The notes under the pieces are model-generated. The model worked only from the letters and a program-made list of their open reading frames with translations. It was not told where the DNA came from and ran no database searches. Positions 13,292-25,034 of a stretch of DNA of 64,000 bases are shown here, one piece after another (within the stretch, counting starts at the first letter, position 1; each line of letters opens with the position of its first letter). The position numbers and the translations under genes are program-made. This DNA is from Hoeflea sp. IMCC20628 (GTDB lineage: Bacteria > Pseudomonadota > Alphaproteobacteria > Rhizobiales > Rhizobiaceae): positions 4,227,662-4,291,661 of the forward strand of contig NZ_CP011479.1 of assembly GCF_001011155.1 (NCBI RefSeq), in the 5' to 3' direction.

Positions 13292-13367
13292 GGGGCCATA
13301 GCTCAGCTGGGAGAGCGCCTGCATGGCATGCAGGAGGTCAGCGGTTCGATCCCGCTTGGCTCCACCA
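13292..13367 (+). tRNA. tRNA-Ala(GGC)
   Basis: 76 nt including an encoded CCA. Acceptor GGGGCCA pairs with TGGCTCC, D-arm AGCTCAGCTGGGAGAGC, anticodon loop ATGGCAT (anticodon GGC), T-arm GGTTCGATCCC. Confidence 0.97.
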
Positions 13368-13565: not shown

Positions 13566-13766
13566 TCAGTGAAAAGTCGAGACCTTTCCGCATTCGAACA
13601 TGCACTGAAACTTGGAGCCCTCGCGCCAGCACCCCGCCCAGCCGCGCCAGGCATTTGTGTCTCGCAGATCGGCCTTGCAGAGCCTGGTCATGCAGGACCA
13701 GTCATTGACGCCACAGCCTCTGGTGCTGCCGTTGCCGATGACGCGCAGTGTCGTATAGTTATAGCG
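13566..13766 (-). other. Six-cysteine C-terminal module, copy 1 (in M28 peptidase)
   Basis: 67 codons ending at the stop codon. Cys occur at module positions 19, 26, 31, 47, 56 and 60, identical in spacing to copies 2 and 3. Confidence 0.85.
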
Positions 13767-15023
13767 ATTGGCCGTGGGGGGCGTTGGCGCATTGGCGTTC
13801 TTGGCCATTTCAATGGCAAATTCCACGCCGAGTTTTGCGAAGCGCTCCTGATGCCGCCCGCTCGAATCCTGATTGGTGATCAGATCATCCGGCGAGTGAA
13901 TGGTACGGTTGTAATCGGCAAAGGCCGATTCAAACGGGAATGCCGATGGAAAGCCCTTGCGGGTCCACGACGCGTGGTCCGAACAGGCATAGCCGCACTG
14001 GGTTTCGCCCCAGGTGATGGCGTGGGCACCACTGCTATTGTATTCGGCGATCAGCCGCTTGAGAAACGCGGTCGCATTCGGGTTCACAAAGTCGGTGACG
14101 AAATACATGTTCTTCGACGACCCCGCAAATCCGGTCATGTCGAACTGAAGAACGCCATTGACGGTCGAGTTGTTGGCCTCGAATGCCGTGGCGATATCGC
14201 CCGATCCGCGCAAGCCGACTTCCTCGGCGGCATAGGCCATGAATTTGATGGTGCGTTTTGGCCGGAAATTGATGTCGGTCAGCACCTTCAGGACTTCCGA
14301 CACCACGGCGATGCCCGATGCATTGTCGTCGGCGCCCGGCGCGTCGTTGGTGTCGCCGCCGTTGATGGAATCAAGATGCCCGCCAATGACCACGATTTCG
14401 TCGGGATGGACCGCACCACGGATTGTGGCGATGACCGAATCCTGTGCCCAGGCGTGATTGATCCGCTCGATGGAAAAATCGCTCCGCCCCGCACCATAGC
14501 CTGTCCAGAGATTGGCAACCGTTGTTGCCGCCTGCGCGCCCTGTGCTGCCTGATAATAGCGCGTGCCCAGGTTCTGCAAGGTTTGCACTGTCGAGGTGAT
14601 CCGGGTGCGGTTGACCTGCGCAAGTGCCTGATTGACGCTTTGCGCTTCGGTCAATTGAGCTGGAAACACGCCCTCGGGCCAGACATAGCCGGGCTGATAG
14701 ATCGGGTTGTCCCGCTCGGCCAGTGCGGCGTCGAGGCTGGGGTGAACCGTGTAACCGCCACATCGGCGGAAATTCTCGTGCATCATCGTATGCAGATCGC
14801 CGATCAGGCTTGAATTGATCCGGGCCACGGTGAGACCGTTTCTCTGTCCAAGCGACGTGAACCCTGGCTCTTCAGGCCCTGAAAGTTGCGCGGCGAGCGA
14901 ACCCTGCAGGACACCTGCGGCATCGCTGCCCAGAACGATCCATTGATCGCCTTGCTGAGCAGCAGCCGAAGAAATGCCAGCGGCGATAAAGCCTGCGGTC
15001 ATGAGCGACAGGAGCTGTTTCAT
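13566..15023 (-). CDS. Secreted M28-family zinc peptidase with C-terminal six-cysteine module
   Basis: 485 residues from the ATG at 15023 (GGAG upstream). It has a Sec signal peptide MKQLLSLMTAGFIAAGISSAAA. The catalytic domain shows the M28 metal set: VVIGGHLDSI (His), GADDNASG (bridging Asp), AEEVGLRGS (Glu pair), FDMTGF (Asp) and CSDHASW (His). Relatives are co-catalytic di-zinc aminopeptidases. Residues 419-485 are a module with six Cys (starting NRYNYTTLRV, ending ECGKVSTFH) also found on the M4 protease and on the 140-residue protein upstream. A hairpin at 15110-15139 separates it from the M4 gene, so its expression may be partly independent. The long in-frame extension upstream of 15023 overlaps the M4 gene region and was rejected. 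Confidence 0.93.
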   Translation of the reverse strand: MKQLLSLMTAGFIAAGISSAAAQQGDQWIVLGSDAAGVLQGSLAAQLSGPEEPGFTSLGQRNGLTVARINSSLIGDLHTMMHENFRRCGGYTVHPSLDAALAERDNPIYQPGYVWPEGVFPAQLTEAQSVNQALAQVNRTRITSTVQTLQNLGTRYYQAAQGAQAATTVANLWTGYGAGRSDFSIERINHAWAQDSVIATIRGAVHPDEIVVIGGHLDSINGGDTNDAPGADDNASGIAVVSEVLKVLTDINFRPKRTIKFMAYAAEEVGLRGSGDIATAFEANNSTVNGVLQFDMTGFAGSSKNMYFVTDFVNPNATAFLKRLIAEYNSSGAHAITWGETQCGYACSDHASWTRKGFPSAFPFESAFADYNRTIHSPDDLITNQDSSGRHQERFAKLGVEFAIEMAKNANAPTPPTANRYNYTTLRVIGNGSTRGCGVNDWSCMTRLCKADLRDTNAWRGWAGCWREGSKFQCMFECGKVSTFH

Positions 15024-15109
15024 GGAAATTCTCCTCAAACAAATGTGACGTTCAGCGTCTGTTGTCGGGACGCAGGCACGGTCACTGGAAACGGGGTTGG
15101 TTCTGGAAC

Positions 15110-15139
15110 AACGGGCCCGGTGGAGGATCCGGGCCCGTT
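15110..15139 (-). terminator. Strong hairpin between the M4 and M28 genes
   Basis: An 11-bp stem (AACGGGCCCGG / CCGGGCCCGTT) with an 8-base loop, 16 bases after the M4 stop codon. The following bases are GTTCC and not a T-run, so it may terminate partially or protect the upstream message. Confidence 0.55.
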
Positions 15140-15154
15140 CACGGCTAACAGGGT

Positions 15155-15358
15155 TCAGAACATGTTCCTGATCTGGCCGCATTCGAAGTTGCAGGTGTAG
15201 CTGCTGCCTTCTTTCCAGCAACCGGCCCAACCACGCCAGGCGCTCTGACTTCTCAGATCAGCCTTGCAGAGATTGGTCATGCAGTTCCAATCATAGGCTC
15301 CACAACCGCGCGAAGCGCTGCTCGAGATGATCCTCAACGTGGTGTAGAGGTAGCGTTT
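15155..15358 (-). other. Six-cysteine C-terminal module, copy 2 (in M4 protease)
   Basis: 67 codons ending at the stop codon. About 50 of 67 residues match copy 3 by eye, with no gaps. Confidence 0.85.
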
Positions 15359-16987
15359 GGCAGTGGGCGTCGGTGCAAGCGAGATCCCGACCTGATCGAA
15401 AGCATAGATCACGTCCGCTTCCGCATAGTTGAGGCGCTTGGCCGCATTGAGAACCTTCTGGGCACCTCCGGCGAAGGTTTCATTGGGAACCCAATAGTTC
15501 TGGTTGGCATAGACCATGATGTCGAATGCCTTCTTCACATTCCAGCCCGGCCGCTTTGACAGCAGGCAGAACGCCTTGTTGTAGACGCCGCTGGAATAGT
15601 GAACGTCCATGCCGGCCACATAATCACGCACATGCCCGATCGAGCGGCCGTCCTGCGGCGGGTTGCACATGTAGCGCAGAGCCTGACCGGCAGCCTTGAA
15701 GATATCGGCACCGGTTTCAAGATCCGGCATGGTCCGGTTCGGGAACAGCTGTCCCCGGGTTTGGGCGAAGTAGTATTCTGACGCCTCACCCGCCATGTCC
15801 GAGAATGCCTCGTTCATGCCACCCGACTGACCACTGTAGATAAGGCCCGAATTCTGCTCGGTGAAGCCGTGCGAGACTTCGTGCGCCATGACATCCAGGC
15901 TGACCAGCGGGTGGAAGCGCGTTGCGCCGTCGCCGAAGGTCATCTGCTGACCATTCCAGAACGCGTTCTCGTAGTTGTTCGAATAATGAACGCGGATATG
16001 GAGCTTGTTGGTCAGCGGGCTGGTGCCGTACCAGGCCTGGTACATGTTGAACACAACCTTGCCCATGCCCTGCGCATCATTAAGCGGAGAATGAGCGCCA
16101 TTGATCGACTTGACCGTGTTGTCGTGGCACGTCAAGCCAAACGGGGTTCCTGGCCCGCTGGTCCCATGGTTGAGGTTTTCGGTTTTCAGAGCGGTGGCGT
16201 CCATGGTGCAGTTCGTGCCGCTCTCGGTGACCTCATATTTGGGTGGCACGCCGGTTCCCCAGCGATACTGACCCACTTTGGTGTTGCCGCCAGGACCGGT
16301 TCCTTTCTCGACATACTGGATGTTGTCGTAGGACTGAATCGTGTCGCCGGTCTGCGCATCGATGACCAGCACCGGCCGGGTGGGACGCACCCCTCCGCCT
16401 TCATCCACCACCGTGGTGAAGAAGCTGGTCAGGTAGGACAGCCGGAGCTTGTTTTCGCCATCGACGACGTAAACCAGATCCGCCTGTTCATTTTCGAACG
16501 GGGCGAGTTCACCGCTGCTTTCTTCCGCCGAAACGGCGGCCCGAGGCGTAAGCCGAACCACGGCTTCCTTGGCTTTTTCAAGCGCCTCTTCGGGCGTCAG
16601 TGCCGGCGCCGCCGTCGAGCTTTCCTCCGGTGAAATGTCAAACACCGCGGTCCCCTCCAGCATGATCGCCGCGCCGGAACCGTCCTGTTCGACGATGACA
16701 TGCTGGTCCTTGACCGGAATGCCGTTCACCGTTTGCTGGAACCGCACCACCCTTCCCAGATCGTTGGGAAGTTCGTTGACGGTCTTGACCTGCAGATCGC
16801 TGGCTTCATCAAGCCCAAGCGCACGCGCGGTTTCAAAGCCCAGCGCATCGGTTGTCGCACCGGATTCCTGAAGTGAACCCATCACGCCGAGCATTGCGCC
16901 TACATCTCGCACATCAGCCGCCATGGCTTGAGTTGCTATCAGGGCCAGCGTTGCAGCCAGGCATGTAATTTTCAGTGTCGTTCTCAT
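15155..16987 (-). CDS. Secreted M4 (thermolysin-family) metalloprotease with C-terminal six-cysteine module
   Basis: 610 residues. Signal peptide cleaved near AMA-AD (residue 24). An FTP/PepSY-type propeptide occupies about 25-220. The catalytic domain follows: zinc motif HEVSH at 369-373, third ligand Glu393 in GGMNEAFSD, and active-site His463 in DVHYSSGVYNKAF. Residues 544-610 are the six-cysteine module (KRYLYTTLRI to CGQIRNMF), joined right after the M4 C-terminal helices (PTPTA linker). An extracellular neutral protease exported by Sec and presumably type II secretion. It follows the 140-residue module protein by 24 bp and is probably co-transcribed with it. Confidence 0.95.
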   Translation of the reverse strand: MRTTLKITCLAATLALIATQAMAADVRDVGAMLGVMGSLQESGATTDALGFETARALGLDEASDLQVKTVNELPNDLGRVVRFQQTVNGIPVKDQHVIVEQDGSGAAIMLEGTAVFDISPEESSTAAPALTPEEALEKAKEAVVRLTPRAAVSAEESSGELAPFENEQADLVYVVDGENKLRLSYLTSFFTTVVDEGGGVRPTRPVLVIDAQTGDTIQSYDNIQYVEKGTGPGGNTKVGQYRWGTGVPPKYEVTESGTNCTMDATALKTENLNHGTSGPGTPFGLTCHDNTVKSINGAHSPLNDAQGMGKVVFNMYQAWYGTSPLTNKLHIRVHYSNNYENAFWNGQQMTFGDGATRFHPLVSLDVMAHEVSHGFTEQNSGLIYSGQSGGMNEAFSDMAGEASEYYFAQTRGQLFPNRTMPDLETGADIFKAAGQALRYMCNPPQDGRSIGHVRDYVAGMDVHYSSGVYNKAFCLLSKRPGWNVKKAFDIMVYANQNYWVPNETFAGGAQKVLNAAKRLNYAEADVIYAFDQVGISLAPTPTAKRYLYTTLRIISSSASRGCGAYDWNCMTNLCKADLRSQSAWRGWAGCWKEGSSYTCNFECGQIRNMF

Positions 16988-17011
16988 GTCGACCTCCTAG
17001 ATATGCCGGGG

Positions 17012-17215
17012 TTAAAACGCGTTGCGGGTCTGGCCGCATTCGAAGTAGCAAATGTAGTTGTTGCCTTTCTTCCAGCAGCCGGCCCATCCGCGCCAGGCGC
17101 TTTGGCTCCGCAAATCTGCCTTGCAAAGATTGGTCATGCAGCTCCAGTTGCCGGAGGCGCAACCACGGCTGGCGCCACTCGTGACCACTCTCAACGTGGT
17201 GTAGAGATAGCGAGG
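17012..17215 (-). other. Six-cysteine module, copy 3 (stand-alone)
   Basis: 67 codons. Cys positions as in copies 1 and 2; conserved blocks YTTLR, SRGC, LCKADLRS and WRGWAGCW. Confidence 0.85.
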
Positions 17216-17434
17216 CGCAGCGGTGGCGTCGGCGTCCATAGCGCCCGCCGGCATCTCCTCGGATGGCGCGATCTCAACCGTGCCGCCCTCCGCTTCAGCA
17301 TCGGCGAAGAGATCCGATATCTCGGACGGCATGCCATCCGGCATTGACGAATCCTGCGCAAAAGCTGGCGATGCCAGACCAATGCCTAGCGCAATGATCA
17401 AACGCGAAATTGATGTCGTGAGTGTGGTTTTCAT
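17012..17434 (-). CDS. Small secreted protein with stand-alone six-cysteine module
   Basis: 140 residues: signal peptide to about residue 26 (ASPAFAQ), an acidic linker (27-73), then the 67-residue module (74-140, PRYLYTTLRVV to CGQTRNAF) found at the C-terminus of the next two proteases. It has no other domain. It could be a binding or sorting partner, an inhibitor or competitor of module-dependent localisation, or an effector in its own right. A CGGGAA-N8-TTCCCG dyad lies 28-47 bases upstream, and an AT-rich stretch upstream of that is a plausible promoter. It opens the run small protein-M4-M28. No family assignment. Confidence 0.8.
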   Translation of the reverse strand: MKTTLTTSISRLIIALGIGLASPAFAQDSSMPDGMPSEISDLFADAEAEGGTVEIAPSEEMPAGAMDADATAAPRYLYTTLRVVTSGASRGCASGNWSCMTNLCKADLRSQSAWRGWAGCWKKGNNYICYFECGQTRNAF

Positions 17435-17615: not shown

Positions 17616-19604
17616 TCACAATGTCTTCAGGTACTCGACAAGCTCCCACTTTTCTGCTTCCGACAACGCGTCCGTTCCATATTCATGCCCGGAATTGTAG
17701 TTCCCGGGCACCGGCGCTCCATCGGTATCGTACACGCGATACTCGAACGGCGCGGTGATCCGGCCGTCAGCCGCCTGATGAACGGGTTCCGGCCCGGTTT
17801 TGAAGCCGATCCTGACCGGATCAAATTCACGGCTGCCGACGTGAAAGACAGAGGGTCTGTCGCCAGGTCCCGGCGTGCTCATCTCCTCTTCACTGTCAAG
17901 CACAAGGCGAAGTGGAGATGGCAGCAAGAGATCATAAAGCGTCGGCACCGACCCATTGTGCAGATAGGGCGCGGTCGCCCATATGCCGTTGAGCGGGCGC
18001 GCCTTGTAGACAAGCACGCTTTCATCAGGCTCCCTGGTCGCCTCCGGAGAGGTCAGACAGGCGCGCGCAAGCTCCTTCTTGCGCTGGTCTTTCACGCCCG
18101 GCAGATAGGTTTTCCCATCCACCGCCTCCTCAGCCGCACGGCGCCAGAAAAACGCCTGATCAAAGACATCGTCAAAGAACTTGCCGGCCAGTTCATCAAC
18201 CTTGCCGATGACAGCGCCCACGGCGGCGTTGGTGAGCATATTCCGGGTGAAGTCGGGGCTGTCGATGGGTTCGCCCTGGATCATGAACGGGCGGCGCCCT
18301 TCGTAATTGCCGGCATTGGCCTGATGCATGAACGTATTGCAGGCAAGCGACATGTCCGTGCCGCTGCTCAGAAGACTGCTCATCTTGGCCTTGATCGGCG
18401 TTCTGGTGTCATCCCAGGCAAGTTTTTCATGGCATTGAGCACACTCGGCTTCAAAATGAACCTGGCCGCGCTCCGCTTTGGTCCAGTCGATCTTCGGCAG
18501 GATGTCCTCCGGCCACCGGGGAGATTTCAACCGCGCCAGCTGCCGTTCGAGATCGATCATTTCCGCGGCCCGCAGGCTTGACCGGTAGCCCAGCAGACCG
18601 GATTTCCATTTCGGGCTGATCTCGACATGGGCAAACACACCGATGACTTCCGAGGTGTTGCGCACCAGCGCACCGATGTCGGTTTGCTTGCCGAGGATCG
18701 ACAGATTGAGGATGTTGCGGGCGATGCCGTTCCACTGCACCTTGTCCTGTTGCGAGGTATTCCAGATGAAAGGATAGCTTGAGGGCGCATCGGATTTGAG
18801 CGCATCCTCAAGTTCAGGCCCGCCACCGATAATGGCGACCTTGTTGAGAATGTGCCCTTGCGCATCAAGGCGCCCGAAGCCCGAGCGGAATTCACGGCCA
18901 TTGCGTTGCTGCAACAGTGTCTGCCAGGCAATCTGTTCGGCGAGTTGCAGCCGGAGACTGCGCCGGGACTCCACACTGAGGTCGGCCTGCAGAACCGCGC
19001 GTGCAAAGCGGTCGAACTTGGCGTCGTCGTCATGGGTCATGACCAGAGCGTCGAGCAAACCCTCCAGAAGTCCCTGGAAATCGGCGAGGGTTGGCGCGCC
19101 TTCCACCCTGATCGTCTTGCCTTCAAACACAATGTCGTTGGTGTGGCAGGCAGAACAGGTCATCCCCACCCAGGGCTTGCGCATGACAAATGCATTGCAG
19201 GTCTCCGGAAACCGCTCACACATGAGATCGGCTTTGCTGCTGTCGTCCTGGTCGACAGCAAAACCGACAGGCAGCCCGTGCGGGTTGCCATCACCGGGCG
19301 GCGACGGCAGGTATCCATACCTGGAAAAATTGTCTTCGGAGAAAAAGCCGGCTGTGTTTGCCGATTGCTCGAGCGCCAGCGCCCAACTGAGCGGCAGCAG
19401 ACGCGACCCCTGCGAAGTCGAGTACCACCAGGACCTTTCCTTCTCGTTCCAGCCCTGCTCCAGACAGGTGATTGCACCTGTGGAGCAAACGCCGCTGTCT
19501 CGCGCCTCGACACTCGCCGGTGCCAAGGAAACCAGCACGAAGCCGAGCACCACCAGAAACGGCCGGCAACACCGCACCATTGCTTCAGTTGGACCCTGTG
19601 CCAT
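17616..19604 (-). CDS. Di-haem cytochrome c peroxidase-like (RoxA-like) secreted protein
   Basis: 662 residues from the ATG at 19604, which has a G-rich ribosome site. The frame is open to 19622, and an ATG at 19580 just after the upstream stop is also possible. A hydrophobic signal segment (FLVVLGFVLVSLAPASVEA) precedes two haem c motifs, CSACH near residue 150 and CAQCH near 395. The N-terminal RSWWYSTSQGSRLLPLSW and the PHGLPVGF region resemble RoxA-like di-haem proteins more than classical MauG/CcpA; that placement is from memory and tentative. It overlaps the serine protease gene and is the last gene of the luxR-subtilisin-trypsin run. It may be an extracellular or periplasmic oxidase; the substrate is unknown. 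Confidence 0.75.
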   Translation of the reverse strand: MAQGPTEAMVRCCRPFLVVLGFVLVSLAPASVEARDSGVCSTGAITCLEQGWNEKERSWWYSTSQGSRLLPLSWALALEQSANTAGFFSEDNFSRYGYLPSPPGDGNPHGLPVGFAVDQDDSSKADLMCERFPETCNAFVMRKPWVGMTCSACHTNDIVFEGKTIRVEGAPTLADFQGLLEGLLDALVMTHDDDAKFDRFARAVLQADLSVESRRSLRLQLAEQIAWQTLLQQRNGREFRSGFGRLDAQGHILNKVAIIGGGPELEDALKSDAPSSYPFIWNTSQQDKVQWNGIARNILNLSILGKQTDIGALVRNTSEVIGVFAHVEISPKWKSGLLGYRSSLRAAEMIDLERQLARLKSPRWPEDILPKIDWTKAERGQVHFEAECAQCHEKLAWDDTRTPIKAKMSSLLSSGTDMSLACNTFMHQANAGNYEGRRPFMIQGEPIDSPDFTRNMLTNAAVGAVIGKVDELAGKFFDDVFDQAFFWRRAAEEAVDGKTYLPGVKDQRKKELARACLTSPEATREPDESVLVYKARPLNGIWATAPYLHNGSVPTLYDLLLPSPLRLVLDSEEEMSTPGPGDRPSVFHVGSREFDPVRIGFKTGPEPVHQAADGRITAPFEYRVYDTDGAPVPGNYNSGHEYGTDALSEAEKWELVEYLKTL

Positions 19605-20832
19605 CAACACTACCCCCCGCATCAGGACTGCTTCCCGCGTCCACGCCTATATTGATTTGAGTGTCAGGCCCGGCGTCAGCCGGCGGTTCCGGCACAGGTT
19701 GCACCGGCGAAAGCAGCGTCCTGACCAGTTCCATCCGAACCGCCCGGTTGGACCGGCTGTAGCGGCCGGAAATATCCCGTCCCCAATGGTGCAATCCGAC
19801 CACTTCACCCGAAACATTGAAGACAGGCGAGCCTGATGAACCACCAAGCGTGTCGCACATATGGGCAAAGTCAGACCGGGATTGACGGCCGGGCGATATG
19901 CTTTCGAAGACAGTGCAGTCGCTATCGGAAATCTGCTTTGGCTCACCTGCCGGGTGCTGGATGATGAAAAGCCGCTCGCCGTCCTGGGCCGGCTGGTCTG
20001 CCAGAGGCAGGCTGTTCCACCGTTTGCCGGGTTCACCGGCCAGTTCCAGCACCGCGGTGTCGAGCTCGACATTGACCGTCCGCACATTGAGGCAATCATA
20101 TTGCTCCATGCCCGGAATTTGGCCGATGCGGTTATATTCATAGCCGAAAATTACCTTGGTGTTGGCGCAGGCCTCCTGATCGGCCACACAATGTTCGTTG
20201 GTCACCAAGGTGCTGTCGTCGACAAGAAATCCGGTACAGACATAGCGCTTCGGCCCATTGGGGGTGTTCTTGATCATGGAGAGCTTGGCGACGGCGCCGC
20301 TCACCCGCGATACAGTGTCGAGCAGGTCACCACCATATTCGTAAAGATGCTGGCGCTGGTCTTGTCCGATGATGGATTCGAGCACCATTCCCCTGCGGTC
20401 GAAACTTATCGATTTCAGCTCGAAGCTGAGAGAGCCATTGCGGTTGCCGTAGACAGACACACCCAGAGACTGGCCACGACCGATATTGGTCCAAAGTGCT
20501 GTTCTTCCGGCAAGCATCTCCGGGGTCAGTGTCTGAACATTGGCGCCGTTGGCGTCGACAATTTCAATCTCGAAATACTCATCCGCATCAAAGCTGATGT
20601 TCTCGAACCGGAGCTGAACGCCGGACGCGCCGGCTCTGAGGAAAGACTGCGCCCATTGCGCCGCTCCGCGGACTTGCTCGGTCCCCGATTCCTCGGGCGA
20701 CGGCGGAAACCGGACCTCCAAAGTCTCGACGACGCCTTCGAGATGAGCCACCGACACCGGCGGTGGAGCATTCTGCGCGACCACTGGCACTGTCGAAAAC
20801 AAGGTTGCGATGAGCAGTATCCGAAATCTCAT
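19585..20832 (-). CDS. Secreted trypsin-like serine protease (S1 family)
   Basis: 415 residues with a signal peptide (cleavage near VVAQ-NA). Residues about 25-160 form a beta-rich N-terminal region with no clear family. The protease domain follows with triad His214 (TNEHC), Asp258 (ELDTAVLEL) and Ser333 (GGSSGSPVF), the glutamyl-endopeptidase-like GxSGSP form. The C-terminal 45 residues are Pro/Ala/Asp/Gly-rich and probably disordered. Its 3' end overlaps the cytochrome gene, and it lies 30 bp after the subtilisin gene, so the three are translated from one message. Confidence 0.9.
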   Translation of the reverse strand: MRFRILLIATLFSTVPVVAQNAPPPVSVAHLEGVVETLEVRFPPSPEESGTEQVRGAAQWAQSFLRAGASGVQLRFENISFDADEYFEIEIVDANGANVQTLTPEMLAGRTALWTNIGRGQSLGVSVYGNRNGSLSFELKSISFDRRGMVLESIIGQDQRQHLYEYGGDLLDTVSRVSGAVAKLSMIKNTPNGPKRYVCTGFLVDDSTLVTNEHCVADQEACANTKVIFGYEYNRIGQIPGMEQYDCLNVRTVNVELDTAVLELAGEPGKRWNSLPLADQPAQDGERLFIIQHPAGEPKQISDSDCTVFESISPGRQSRSDFAHMCDTLGGSSGSPVFNVSGEVVGLHHWGRDISGRYSRSNRAVRMELVRTLLSPVQPVPEPPADAGPDTQINIGVDAGSSPDAGGSVDGTGSN

Positions 20833-20862: not shown

Positions 20863-23208
20863 CTAACGGGTGGTTACAATCAGGTCCGCGATCTCGCTCA
20901 TCGGAAATTTCTGCAGAAACTCCGGCTTGCGCTCACCACACTCTTCCGAAACCGTGGCTGGCAGGAACCGGGCAATGCGATCAAGATGTTCCGGGACCAC
21001 CTGAAAAGTTCCGCGATGAAGCCGGTTGTTTTTCTCGTACATGATGAGGTGCCAATCCAGCCGGGCATTGTAGTGAAAGCGCCGGAGAGCGTCCTTGTCG
21101 ATGAAAACCAGGCCGCCTTCGCCCACTGTCCAGTTGGCCTGCAACTGGCTGGCATTGGTCAGGTCGGTGAACGTGCCGTCCATGCGGCAGCCATCAGACA
21201 GTTCCACGTGATCGACACCGAATTGCATCACCCGGTCCATGTCGATCATGGTGGCATTGGCATAATCGAGAAGCGTATCATCCAGTTTGGCGGTCGTGAT
21301 CAACTGGGTGTAGATATCATCCACATCGCGCATGCCGCGCCGGATCAAATGGCCCACCACCGCGGCAACGATGGGGGCTGCCTGGGACGTGCCCGACAAC
21401 GGGCCGACCATTCCGTCACCAACGGTCGAAATCAGATTCGATCCAATGGCACCGATGTCATGATAGCGGTACCCGGCATTGCTCTGGTCAAGAAGCTTGA
21501 GACGGCCGTCCGCATCCACATCCAGTCCGACGACGGAAATGACATTCCTGCTCTCGATGCAGGCCGGGCTGATGCTGCAACCGGCGCGCTCGTTGTAGTT
21601 GCCGGCCGCGACGATAAACGGAATGGATTTTGCGTCCTGAATAATTGCCTTCTCGAGCAATCCTGCCTCGGCCTTGTTCCAGGCAACGCTCATATTGACG
21701 GCATCCACGTCCCACCACGAAAACAGATTGACCGCTTCCAGCAGGGCCTTCATGGCCGGCTCGTTGGGGCTCATCGCCCCGTCCGGATTGGGCACATGAA
21801 TGATGGTGACGGGCGGCAGGCCTCCCGGGGGAGCCTGTGTCTGACCGCCAAGGCTGAGCAGTTCGACCAGCATGCCGAGCGTATGGGTGCCGTGACTTTT
21901 CTCCGCAAGCGGGTGCTCGTTGAGCAGTCCGCAGTCCGCACCGGCCGTATCATCGGGCGCTTCGCCTTCTGCCACTGTCTCAGTGCCGGTTGTCAGCGAG
22001 GCATTGACAGCTTCAGCGCCATTGTCCGGATCGAGAGTGCCGGCAGTTTCGGGCGCCGGCTCCAGCGGCTTGATTTCCTCGAGGATCCTCTTCTCCAGGT
22101 TCCAGCGCATCAGGTGCACCTTGCCCTTGAAGGCGCAATGATTGAGGTCCGCTTCCCCGTCGATATGGGCGATCGTGACGGGCTTGAGATTTTCGCCGTC
22201 CTTCCAGGGCGTTCGCATTTGCCCCGCCTTGTTGACAATCTCCATCCACCGAAGCTTGGCCTGGTTGTTCTGTTTGAAGGACGCAGATTGCAGCCGCAGC
22301 TTCTGTTCCACGATCACGTTTTCCGACAGGGAATCGAATGCCCTGCCGTAAGCGCCCGAATCAAACGACTCGATGGTGAAATTGGCTTCGATGATCGGGA
22401 TCGCAACCATCTTGACTTCGGAACCCGCCGCGCCGAATTTTCGAAGCGCATTGGGAGAAGCCAGCTTCGAGAACATCTCAGGATCAACCTTGCCGTCATC
22501 GACATACTGGATGATCTCGGGCGGGCGGTTTGCCCATCCTTGCTGGACATCGCTGCCAGCACAGGATTCATGGATGGCGAACGCCTTGCGGCACCAGAGC
22601 TGCGCGAGGTCCGAAGTCTTGACGATGGCAATGTCATTGACCTGGCTCGCGAGCTCGGAGGCTTGTCGCGTGCCGACTTCATAGGACAATCGCATATCGA
22701 TATCGGGAAGATAGATGGTCGCGCCAGGCCAGGCTTTTGACCAATCCACCCCATCCTGTTTGGAGGCCTTGCCGCGCACAGAACAGATGTCGGGATTGAG
22801 CGTGCACAGCAGCACCTCGACATTGTACGGGGTGCGTCCCTCAAGCCAGGATGGCCAGATGCCGCTTCTGATCATGACATCGGTGGGATTTTCGCCAGCA
22901 AGAATGATGGCCCGTTTGGTCTTCAGCGCTGTGTTCTCAGAGAGGGTCAGATAGAGTTTGGCAAGCGCGGCCTGGACCGCATCCTTGCTGACAACCTCGG
23001 TGCGCCAGAAAGCCTGCCTGGATGCGTCTGCGAAATCCGGGGCTATCATCCTGCCGCCGGTCTCCTGCGCCACAGCCCCTGCGGATGCTGACGCCGATGC
23101 GGCGCAAATCAAACCGGCAAGGACTGTCATCCGGCTGAAAACCGCCGTCCTGCGACGGTCGGGGGCAATTCGGTATTGCCTGTCAAACGGTGAAACCATT
23201 CCGGGCAT
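20863..23208 (-). CDS. Secreted subtilisin-like serine protease (S8 family)
   Basis: 781 residues from the ATG at 23208, which has GGAGG five bases upstream. A 26-residue basic N-terminus precedes a hydrophobic signal segment (MTVLAGLICAASASASAGAVA). Residues about 50-340 are an N-terminal region of unknown fold. The S8 domain carries Asp350 (IAHIDGEAD), His439 (KSHGTH), Asn537 (AAGNYN) and Ser608 (SGTSQAAP). An acidic insert rich in Glu/Asp/Thr (about 385-425) separates the Asp and His motifs. It has no six-cysteine module. It lies 21 bp downstream of the LuxR-type gene. Confidence 0.93.
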   Translation of the reverse strand: MPGMVSPFDRQYRIAPDRRRTAVFSRMTVLAGLICAASASASAGAVAQETGGRMIAPDFADASRQAFWRTEVVSKDAVQAALAKLYLTLSENTALKTKRAIILAGENPTDVMIRSGIWPSWLEGRTPYNVEVLLCTLNPDICSVRGKASKQDGVDWSKAWPGATIYLPDIDMRLSYEVGTRQASELASQVNDIAIVKTSDLAQLWCRKAFAIHESCAGSDVQQGWANRPPEIIQYVDDGKVDPEMFSKLASPNALRKFGAAGSEVKMVAIPIIEANFTIESFDSGAYGRAFDSLSENVIVEQKLRLQSASFKQNNQAKLRWMEIVNKAGQMRTPWKDGENLKPVTIAHIDGEADLNHCAFKGKVHLMRWNLEKRILEEIKPLEPAPETAGTLDPDNGAEAVNASLTTGTETVAEGEAPDDTAGADCGLLNEHPLAEKSHGTHTLGMLVELLSLGGQTQAPPGGLPPVTIIHVPNPDGAMSPNEPAMKALLEAVNLFSWWDVDAVNMSVAWNKAEAGLLEKAIIQDAKSIPFIVAAGNYNERAGCSISPACIESRNVISVVGLDVDADGRLKLLDQSNAGYRYHDIGAIGSNLISTVGDGMVGPLSGTSQAAPIVAAVVGHLIRRGMRDVDDIYTQLITTAKLDDTLLDYANATMIDMDRVMQFGVDHVELSDGCRMDGTFTDLTNASQLQANWTVGEGGLVFIDKDALRRFHYNARLDWHLIMYEKNNRLHRGTFQVVPEHLDRIARFLPATVSEECGERKPEFLQKFPMSEIADLIVTTR

Positions 23209-23229
23209 GACAACCTCCATGCGAAGAGC

Positions 23230-24438
23230 CTAAATGCGAGTCTCCACCACTTCATCCCCAGAAATGGTGATGGCAGACTCCACAAAAACCTGTGGACTGA
23301 AACCCGTCGCCATGCGGATGAGCTGCGCCCGATTTTGTGTCATGGTTTTCGAAAGCAGCGTTTTGACCTGGGTGTAGATTGTTTCGGGCGAACGATTGCG
23401 CTGCTCCGATATCTGCGCGTTGGTCATGCCGTCGGCGATCATCGCAAGCACGGCTTCTTCCGAGGGCGTGAGAGAAAACACCTGCGCCAGATACCGGGTA
23501 TCCACGCTGTACTTCTGACTTGTATCCAGACTGAAAAGCACGAATCCGTTCAGATTGGTCTCGCCGATAATGTTGCCCGAAAAAAGCGGACAGACTTCAA
23601 TGCAAAGTGCGGCTTCATCTTGCCTGAGCGGATGAAGCACCGCCTCCTTGCGTGGGCGCCCGCCAAACTTGCCGTGCTGCTCGACGCCTGAAAACAGTGT
23701 ATCGAGCTCGGCCCTGACTTTCGGATCGTTGGCAACAAGCCGTCCATGTGCGTTGAGCGCAAAAGCAGTGTGCACTTCAAGCTGCCGGTCAAATTCGACA
23801 TTCTTGAAGACAATTCCGCCATTCGTCGAAAGGATGCAAATGCCGATGCGAAAGTGGTTGAAAGTCTCAAGCAGGGCTTTCTCCGCGCCGATCACGCGGG
23901 TGGTCTGACGGCCCATATCAAGCGCCTTTGCGATATGCGGCATGATCGTGTTGATGGCCTGCAGACGTTCGCCCGTTGGCAATCCGGCTCGTCGCGAGAA
24001 CTGCATGGCAAAGCGGTCTGAATAAAGATGATCCTTGTTGAGCAGAGCACCAGCCCGGAAGGAAATGCCGTAATTCGCCATCATCTTGGCATTCGGCCGG
24101 CTATCGATCACCGCACGCGTGGGGCCCAGAACAGTATCGGGTATCAGTTCAATGCCATCTGTGAGCTGGGAATATTCGGCAAATATCCTCTGATCCCTGA
24201 GTTCCTGCTTGTTGAACAGACGGAGATACTCGTCGACAAGAACACGCTCGTAGTTGGATGTATTGTATGTCGCGCAAACGGAGGGAGTATGGACTGAAGT
24301 GGAGATGTCAAACACGAATGCGCCGCGCGCATCCACAAGCTCTGCGACCTTGTCGAGGATGTCCGGCCAGCGTTCCGGCTCCATTGCTGCATCGTAAATC
24401 GACAGAATGAGGCTTTGCGTATCCGGTAAATTTTGCAC
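23230..24438 (-). CDS. LuxR-type HTH transcriptional regulator
   Basis: 402 residues from GTG 24438 with GGAGG five bases upstream; a TTG at 24450 overlaps that ribosome site. The C-terminal GerE-type HTH is at about 330-390 (LTPSEEAVLAMIADGMTNAQISEQ, then SPETIYTQVKTLLSK). The N-terminal 320 residues do not look like an autoinducer-binding or receiver domain and may be a PAS-like sensor. It is first in the run with the S8 and S1 proteases and the cytochrome, so it probably controls them. Its own signal is unknown. Confidence 0.88.
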   Translation of the reverse strand: MQNLPDTQSLILSIYDAAMEPERWPDILDKVAELVDARGAFVFDISTSVHTPSVCATYNTSNYERVLVDEYLRLFNKQELRDQRIFAEYSQLTDGIELIPDTVLGPTRAVIDSRPNAKMMANYGISFRAGALLNKDHLYSDRFAMQFSRRAGLPTGERLQAINTIMPHIAKALDMGRQTTRVIGAEKALLETFNHFRIGICILSTNGGIVFKNVEFDRQLEVHTAFALNAHGRLVANDPKVRAELDTLFSGVEQHGKFGGRPRKEAVLHPLRQDEAALCIEVCPLFSGNIIGETNLNGFVLFSLDTSQKYSVDTRYLAQVFSLTPSEEAVLAMIADGMTNAQISEQRNRSPETIYTQVKTLLSKTMTQNRAQLIRMATGFSPQVFVESAITISGDEVVETRI

Positions 24439-25034
24439 CTGGTCCTCCAATGACTTGGATTGCAGGGTTCTATCCCTGTCTTTAGCTTAACTGCCCCCAC
24501 TTTGTTGATTATGTTTTATAACACCTGACCCATGTGGCTGCAAAGTTCCTGAATTCTCGGTTAGCAATTTGCTCCACCGACCGGTGCTATGCGGAGAAGA
24601 GAACGTCCCCCGTGGCAGGGAATGTAGCGGAGTTGCGTGTCAGGTTCATGCTGTTCACGGTCATTCCAAGAGCACGATATATTCCCCGCCCGGCTCACCA
24701 TATGCACGAAACTCAAGCACCCAAAGCCAAAGCGCTCCGCGTGACACAGCGCGATATCATCTTTGTGCCAGCGCAAGCACATAGAGATAATCTGGGCTAG
24801 AGGATGAGCTGCTACCCCACTCTGCCTCTTTGCTACCATCGCATCTGATCGGAGTTTAGTGTGAACTACACAACCACAGCATGCACGGCGATCCAGATCT
24901 GAGCAAGGTTTTGATAACCACACTGGCAAAAACCGACGTTCCAGGCGGCTGGAATCTTTGAAACACGATGCCTTTTACCGGAAATGAAGTGTTTGTGTCC
25001 TATGCCGGATCGGACTGAAGCAGGGAGCCCGATC
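24439..25034. other. Divergent intergenic region
   Basis: About 600 bp between the luxR-type gene and the HAD-UbiA gene. Base composition is lower in GC near 24490-24530, a plausible promoter for the protease operon. Open frames here do not resemble known proteins; no repeat or RNA recognised. Confidence 0.45.

Follow-up and report, generated by a model that had tools for sequence, protein, structure and literature searches.

The closest described systems are exoproteases of families M4 and M28 that end in PPC domains (Pfam PF04151). Excerpts of PMC3327674 report casein and phycocyanin binding by the PPC domains of an M4 protease, a higher efficiency on proteins for the form of the enzyme with one PPC and, citing another protease, PPC tails that are inhibitory and dispensable for secretion. 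According to an excerpt of PMC10709122, Lap, an M28 enzyme of V. cholerae, gains nearly four-fold in efficiency once its PPC tail is removed, and is processed by a partner protease, LapX. The genome of Pseudoalteromonas sp. CF6-2 (locus L047) encodes an adjacent M4-M28 pair with PPC twice in each protein; no bare PPC protein is annotated beside the pair.

In the 64,000-nucleotide stretch of the Hoeflea sp. IMCC20628 genome analysed here (the window), three consecutive genes on the minus strand share one C-terminal six-cysteine block. They encode an M28 aminopeptidase (13566-15023; 485 residues from the ATG of MKQLLSLM, with a longer TTG-started ORF that begins at 15230), an M4 endopeptidase (15155-16987; 610 residues) and a protein of 140 residues (17012-17434), here called the bare protein. 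The block, hereafter the module, is encoded at 13566-13766 in the M28 gene, 15155-15355 in the M4 gene and 17012-17212 in the bare gene, in each case 66 residues plus the stop codon, as delimited by alignment and by matches within the genome.

The rest of the M4 protein (15356-16987) comprises a signal peptide, an FTP/PepSY-like propeptide, a catalytic domain at about residues 229-536 and an 8-residue linker (PF01447, PF02868 and PF07504). The HEVSH...E (HExxH...E) motif and the M4 and M4_C domains identify it as an M4 peptidase. Phmmer aligned residues 11-541 with pro-elastase (pseudolysin; 9.8e-109) and alignments with mature M4 enzymes reach to about residue 536; the module starts at residue 545, 3-8 residues beyond the alignments to solved relatives. 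The rest of the M28 protein (13767-15023) comprises a signal peptide, a propeptide, a core that reaches to about residues 407-414 and a linker (PF04389, 1.6e-36). The M28 domain and the metal-binding motifs of the family are present, the motif residues being presumably zinc ligands. Residues 123-414 were aligned with the Vibrio-type leucyl aminopeptidase 1rtq (phmmer, 2e-82). Alignments to solved relatives stop at 407-414 of the 484-residue query, and the module follows from 419, 4-11 residues later. Cores and motifs are therefore those of pseudolysin/vibriolysin-type M4 and Vibrio leucyl-aminopeptidase-type M28 enzymes, but the alignments stop before the module; because PDB chains are often trimmed, these ends mark the end of the core and not tail-less precursors. 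The nearest NCBIfam models are Legionella ProA and LapA, with equivalog cut-offs that were missed (342 of 900 and 184.8 of 600 bits, respectively). Within the order, few genomes have a relative of the M4 core: at E <= 1e-20 there were 2 among 249, this one included, and the other match is partial, at 32% identity. In the bare protein, the part before the module (17213-17434) consists of a signal peptide and an acidic segment (no K or R, 12 D or E). All signal peptides were judged by eye.

In a gap-free alignment of the last 66 residues, the bare copy of the module is 76% identical to the M4 copy (50/66) and 59% identical to the M28 copy. With the bare copy as query, the other two were found in the genome at E 2.6e-33 (M4) and 3.6e-26 (M28), values that exclude chance likeness, and nothing else was found there below E 0.15. 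Across all eight copies aligned from three genomes, 30 of the 66 columns are invariant, including the six cysteines (positions 18, 25, 30, 46, 55 and 59) and four tryptophans. The module is net basic in every copy (8-11 K+R against 2-5 D+E). The initial annotation had described a gap-free C-terminal block of 67 residues at these positions in the three proteins, with cysteines at 19, 26, 31, 47, 56 and 60 and about 50 matches between the M4 and stand-alone copies. The block is confirmed at 66-67 residues, the cysteines are the same ones (the extra first residue is not conserved) and 50 matches were counted in 66; its view of a discrete module, carried by enzymes of two unrelated catalytic folds and found once on its own, is likewise supported, the linkers to the enzymes being short.

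The same annotation did not recognise a named domain here, and profile and sequence searches agree. The 66-residue module has no Pfam, NCBIfam or PHROG match at E <= 10, and a sequence search of the PDB returned only unrelated proteins (E 0.064, 0.33 and 2), none of them credible; identity with a known domain was rejected on these grounds. For the whole bare protein, Pfam and NCBIfam gave nothing, PHROGs two matches only (E 0.26 and 0.38) and the PADLOC models nothing at E <= 0.01. A literature search did not find a six-cysteine M4/M28 tail, and the strings WRGWAGCW and LCKADLR were absent from the papers searched. Judged from its sequence, the module is an undescribed cysteine-rich domain, which none of the family libraries searched contains. 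AlphaFold2, run twice from different first sequences, gave a strand-helix-strand-strand arrangement both times, at low confidence (mean pLDDT 59.7 and 68.4, from five rows only). Foldseek searches of the PDB with these two low-confidence models gave no match at E <= 0.001; the best matches, dodecin (E 0.10) and Salmonella SrfN (E 1.1), were discarded as fold relatives. Given the low confidence and the lack of such a match, both disulfides and fold are predictions: the strand-helix-strand-strand order is a hint only, and three disulfides most likely form among the six cysteines after Sec export, which would give a small, rigid, basic and aromatic domain.

PPC was not among the Pfam matches of the three window proteins at E <= 10, whereas the same library does detect it in the Pseudoalteromonas pair. 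Both tails are C-terminal on M4 and M28 exoproteases and occur on an adjacent pair; unlike PPC, the module lacks a PF04151 match, has six conserved cysteines and also occurs bare behind a signal peptide. The likeness, as far as alignment can tell, is to the PPC tail by position and not to the PPC domain by sequence. An M28 protein encoded on pSymA of Sinorhizobium meliloti (L046), which adjoins S8 and M12 protease genes, is 51% identical over query residues 26-407 but has an unrelated C-terminus without the six-cysteine block. This enzyme and the Pseudoalteromonas pair end in other tails, so the possibility that the module is an ordinary part of M4 and M28 enzymes was rejected for the relatives inspected, in keeping with the initial annotation. 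The S. meliloti stretch (L046, 3580-9491) is itself another protease row (S8, M12, M28).

The module was identified in 3 of 394 genomes of the family: this one, a genome of another genus (G901) and Mesorhizobium microcysteis (G953/L010/G101). Matches above chance occurred in 1 of 101 relatives, 1 of 397 genomes of the order and 1 of 385 of the class, each time the Hoeflea genome itself (the relative, order, class and family samples overlap), and a search of 60 relatives of M. microcysteis found it only in M. microcysteis. There are three copies in the Hoeflea genome, three in G901 and two (bare and M4) in M. microcysteis, where no M28 core was found in the stretch L044. A scan of genome contigs returned one locus, that of M. 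microcysteis; it used near-exact 8-residue patterns, matched in 229 stretches, which distant relatives would escape. The module was in none of 160 candidate stretches from viral contigs, and phage and plasmid records gave no match to the 140-residue protein at E <= 0.1. Weak matches were dropped before counting: those in three other genomes among the 101 relatives, in 12 of the 397 order and 12 of the 385 class genomes besides the Hoeflea genome (E <= 0.01), three in the Hoeflea genome (E 0.15-0.57) and four in M. microcysteis (E 0.058-0.25). They were set aside as chance likenesses: when 41 loci and the window were scanned for the six-cysteine spacing, loosened by 1-3 residues, only true copies turned up, plus one match in L017, on another strand and in another place than the weak module match of that locus; such a scan would overlook relatives with lost cysteines. 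Wide spread was thus rejected within the genome, viral, phage and plasmid sets searched, and the module is very rare and lineage-restricted, known so far from three related bacteria. The idea that it is transferable is only partly supported: it sits on two folds, but in all three genomes on the same genes of a single row, which gives no support to movement between contexts.

The order of this row is the same in the three genomes. In the window it runs, all on the minus strand, from a LuxR-type regulator (23230-24450; PF00196, 6.4e-11) through an S8 subtilase (20863-23220; PF00082, 1.2e-10), a trypsin-like serine protease (19585-20832; PF13365, 3.6e-20) and a RoxA-like di-haem cytochrome (17616-19622; PF21419, 4.6e-18) to the bare protein and the M4 enzyme with its module; the M28 enzyme with its module closes the row in two of the three genomes (window and G901). 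Strand and spacing suggest that the row is one operon. Promoter-like and terminator-like sites are near the numbers in shuffled sequence (4 vs 4.0 and 14 vs 11.1). Among the PADLOC models, RT-Protease_XI (6e-13) and LmuA (1.5e-6) matched the trypsin-like protein and CARF3 (3.6e-4) the LuxR protein, and the subtilase was matched as well (6.9e-6); the aligned parts appear to reflect protease and DNA-binding domains in common rather than defence systems.

Related regulator and cytochrome genes occur without the module trio in the stretches read from Rhizobium sp. WL3, Ruegeria pomeroyi, G874 and G1031, none of which gave a tblastn match to the M4, M28 or bare protein or to the module. S8 and trypsin-like genes lie beside this unit in WL3 and G1031, the S8 gene of WL3 being known from its annotation, without a tblastn match. 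Because the LuxR and RoxA-like genes are found elsewhere without M4, M28 or module, the trio looks like an addition to an older LuxR/RoxA-like unit. RoxA-like relatives at E <= 1e-100 are present in 5 of 297 family genomes, including this one. A LuxR-type regulator lies near a RoxA-like cytochrome in seven alphaproteobacterial loci (window, L044, L048, L049, L056, L090 and L091), and we take fatty-acid di-haem oxygenases of Pseudomonas with a signalling role to be possible relatives of these cytochromes. In G1031, a 378-residue protein with a signal peptide by eye (L091, 7526-8662) is encoded after the trypsin-like gene, where the trio would otherwise lie.

The module is conserved about as well as the catalytic domains, and better than the signal peptides with propeptides and the acidic segment. 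For M4, identity between window and G901 is 83% in the module, 78% in the catalytic domain and 55% in signal peptide plus propeptide; against M. microcysteis the values are 74%, 80% and 64%. Four of the five alignable linker residues are identical in the latter comparison, the linkers being too short to judge. For M28, window and G901 share 70% (module), 68% (catalytic) and 41% (signal peptide plus propeptide). The bare protein of the window shares 80% in the module and 47% in the acidic segment with that of G901, and 75-80% and 47-48% over both comparisons. In a tree of the modules, the M28 copies of the two genera group together (97/96 support, one of them on a long branch), which dates that duplication to before the genera split. 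The bare and M4 copies of M. microcysteis are 80% identical to each other, against 75% (bare) and 74% (M4) to their window orthologues; the tree forks there are unresolved, and we make no claim of gene conversion.

We tentatively favour the reading that the module is a new, lineage-specific accessory tail that takes the place of PPC and tethers and/or restrains the M4 and M28 enzymes, since it has the same position on the same enzyme types as PPC. By analogy with better-known protease tails, it is probably an appendage that guides the enzymes or holds them in check. A pseudolysin-type M4 and a Vibrio-type M28 enzyme would carry it where the marine M4-M28 pair carries PPC, and Sec export and the formation of three disulfides would leave it small, rigid, basic and aromatic. 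It could then tether both enzymes to one target, whether a protein substrate, the matrix or a polymer of the envelope, and may keep them restrained until its removal by cleavage; the bare copy, a basic module with an acidic arm, might occupy this target as well, or else associate with the modules on the two enzymes. Several results count against this reading. No sequence relation of the module to PPC was found, and the parallel is weakened further by the Pseudoalteromonas locus, where no bare PPC protein is annotated, whereas the module is also bare. In the M4 comparison with M. microcysteis, the module (74%) falls below the catalytic domain (80%). Action outside the cell is also in some doubt: the best GspD scores are 115.8 bits in the Hoeflea genome and 110.5 in G901, below the family cut-off of 351.35, which is exceeded in M. 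microcysteis (423.8), although that cut-off was reached in just 2 of 14 control genomes and a divergent secretin could score lower. The proteins had been called secreted, a description that the signal peptides support and the GspD scores of two genomes do not. With the module, an undescribed cysteine-rich domain joins the accessory tails of bacterial exoproteases, and the natural three-way comparison of endopeptidase, aminopeptidase and bare copy makes it easier to test what such tails do.

A rather doubtful alternative is that the module serves in docking or assembly, the basic module pairing with the acidic arm so that the bare protein gathers the M4 and M28 enzymes into one complex or, as a competitor, blocks their tails. 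In the window and in G901 the genes with the module directly follow one another, and all three genomes keep the bare copy, even M. microcysteis, whose only copies are the bare one and that of the M4 enzyme. The segment between its signal peptide and module is acidic in all three genomes (10-12 D+E, 0-1 K+R), opposite in charge to the basic modules. These features fit a partner role and prove nothing; acidic linkers are common, and the segment is far less conserved than the module. In a more specific and quite improbable version, the row encodes a self-docking exported protease system in which the acidic arm of the bare copy recognises the basic, disulfide-stapled modules on the endopeptidase and the aminopeptidase. 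If this were true, the cutting and trimming enzymes would be held as one assembly and released or blocked by the amount of bare protein.

That the module instead sorts or anchors the proteins, holding them at the cell surface or guiding them across the outer membrane, is unlikely. It occupies the same C-terminal position in three proteins, including two enzymes whose folds are unrelated, and known C-terminal sorting tails sit in this position too. However, the three copies in the genome leave none for the S8, trypsin-like and RoxA-like proteins of the row, the stretches read showed no other partner gene in common, and no lipobox, LPXTG-like motif or glycine-rich tail was seen by eye. Sorting by type II secretion in particular is disfavoured, as GspD passes its cut-off in one of the three genomes and the other row products have no module.

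A role as C-terminal propeptide or inhibitor, in which the module would keep the enzymes inactive until cut off at maturation and the bare copy would act as a free inhibitor, appears improbable. The PPC tail of Lap, in the excerpt of PMC10709122, is a precedent, and the row encodes two endoproteases besides M4, the S8 and trypsin-like proteins. Against this, the M4 enzyme already has an N-terminal FTP propeptide, and one purely inhibitory tail for the differently shaped active sites of M4 and M28 enzymes seems unlikely. Finally, restriction to one gene row would fit a tail that has no function of its own and was duplicated in tandem within that row, but this is very improbable because the M28 duplication predates the split of two genera and orthologous modules are 70-83% identical, compared with 41-64% for signal peptides plus propeptides and 47-48% for the acidic segments.

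The row lies in an accessory block that starts at tRNA-Ala(ggc) (13292-13367, plus strand); 11.6 kb of the window separate this tRNA gene from the UbiA gene at 24984. UbiA is present in 12 of 13 genomes of the genus, including this one, and ten of these loci were compared. Nine have EPSP synthase, the FYDLN-acid gene, tRNA-Ala and UbiA in this order; they lack the block, place UbiA roughly 0.1-1.6 kb from tRNA-Ala and show no match to the cassette proteins. In these nine, the left flank of the window is homologous up to a point between 13367 and 13377, which is 13371 in the nearest (G010). No sharp edge was seen on the right: with the cut-off used, the intergenic stretch before UbiA matched only one of the ten loci, over 49 bases; the figure for G010 is 21 bases. 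The tenth locus (G008) has UbiA without EPSP synthase, the FYDLN-acid gene or tRNA-Ala in the stretch read. Since sites in the same genus lack the block, the protease row as a whole is an accessory trait by which close relatives differ. Gain by transfer accounts for this pattern more simply than its alternative, repeated loss. As in tRNA-site islands, there is an extra block at the 3' end of a tRNA gene; an integrase was not found among the seven main products of the block, nor was an att repeat of the tRNA end, as 24401-25000 holds no exact repeat of at least 9 bases. The flanking proteins of the window have no match in L044 or L056. No tRNA lies within the 27.5 kb read in G901, and about 160 bp separate the end of the row from tRNA-Met (L010, 4360-4436) in M. 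microcysteis. The end of the row is thus less than about 200 bp from a tRNA gene in two of three genomes, the tRNAs being different (Met and Ala). In G010, the slot between tRNA-Ala and UbiA seems, by eye, to hold a small antitoxin/toxin-like gene pair. In G874, about 1.3 kb separate the RoxA-like gene from a partial match to the FYDLN-acid protein (L090, 439-588; 76% across 50 residues), and the FYDLN-acid gene also borders the block in the window.
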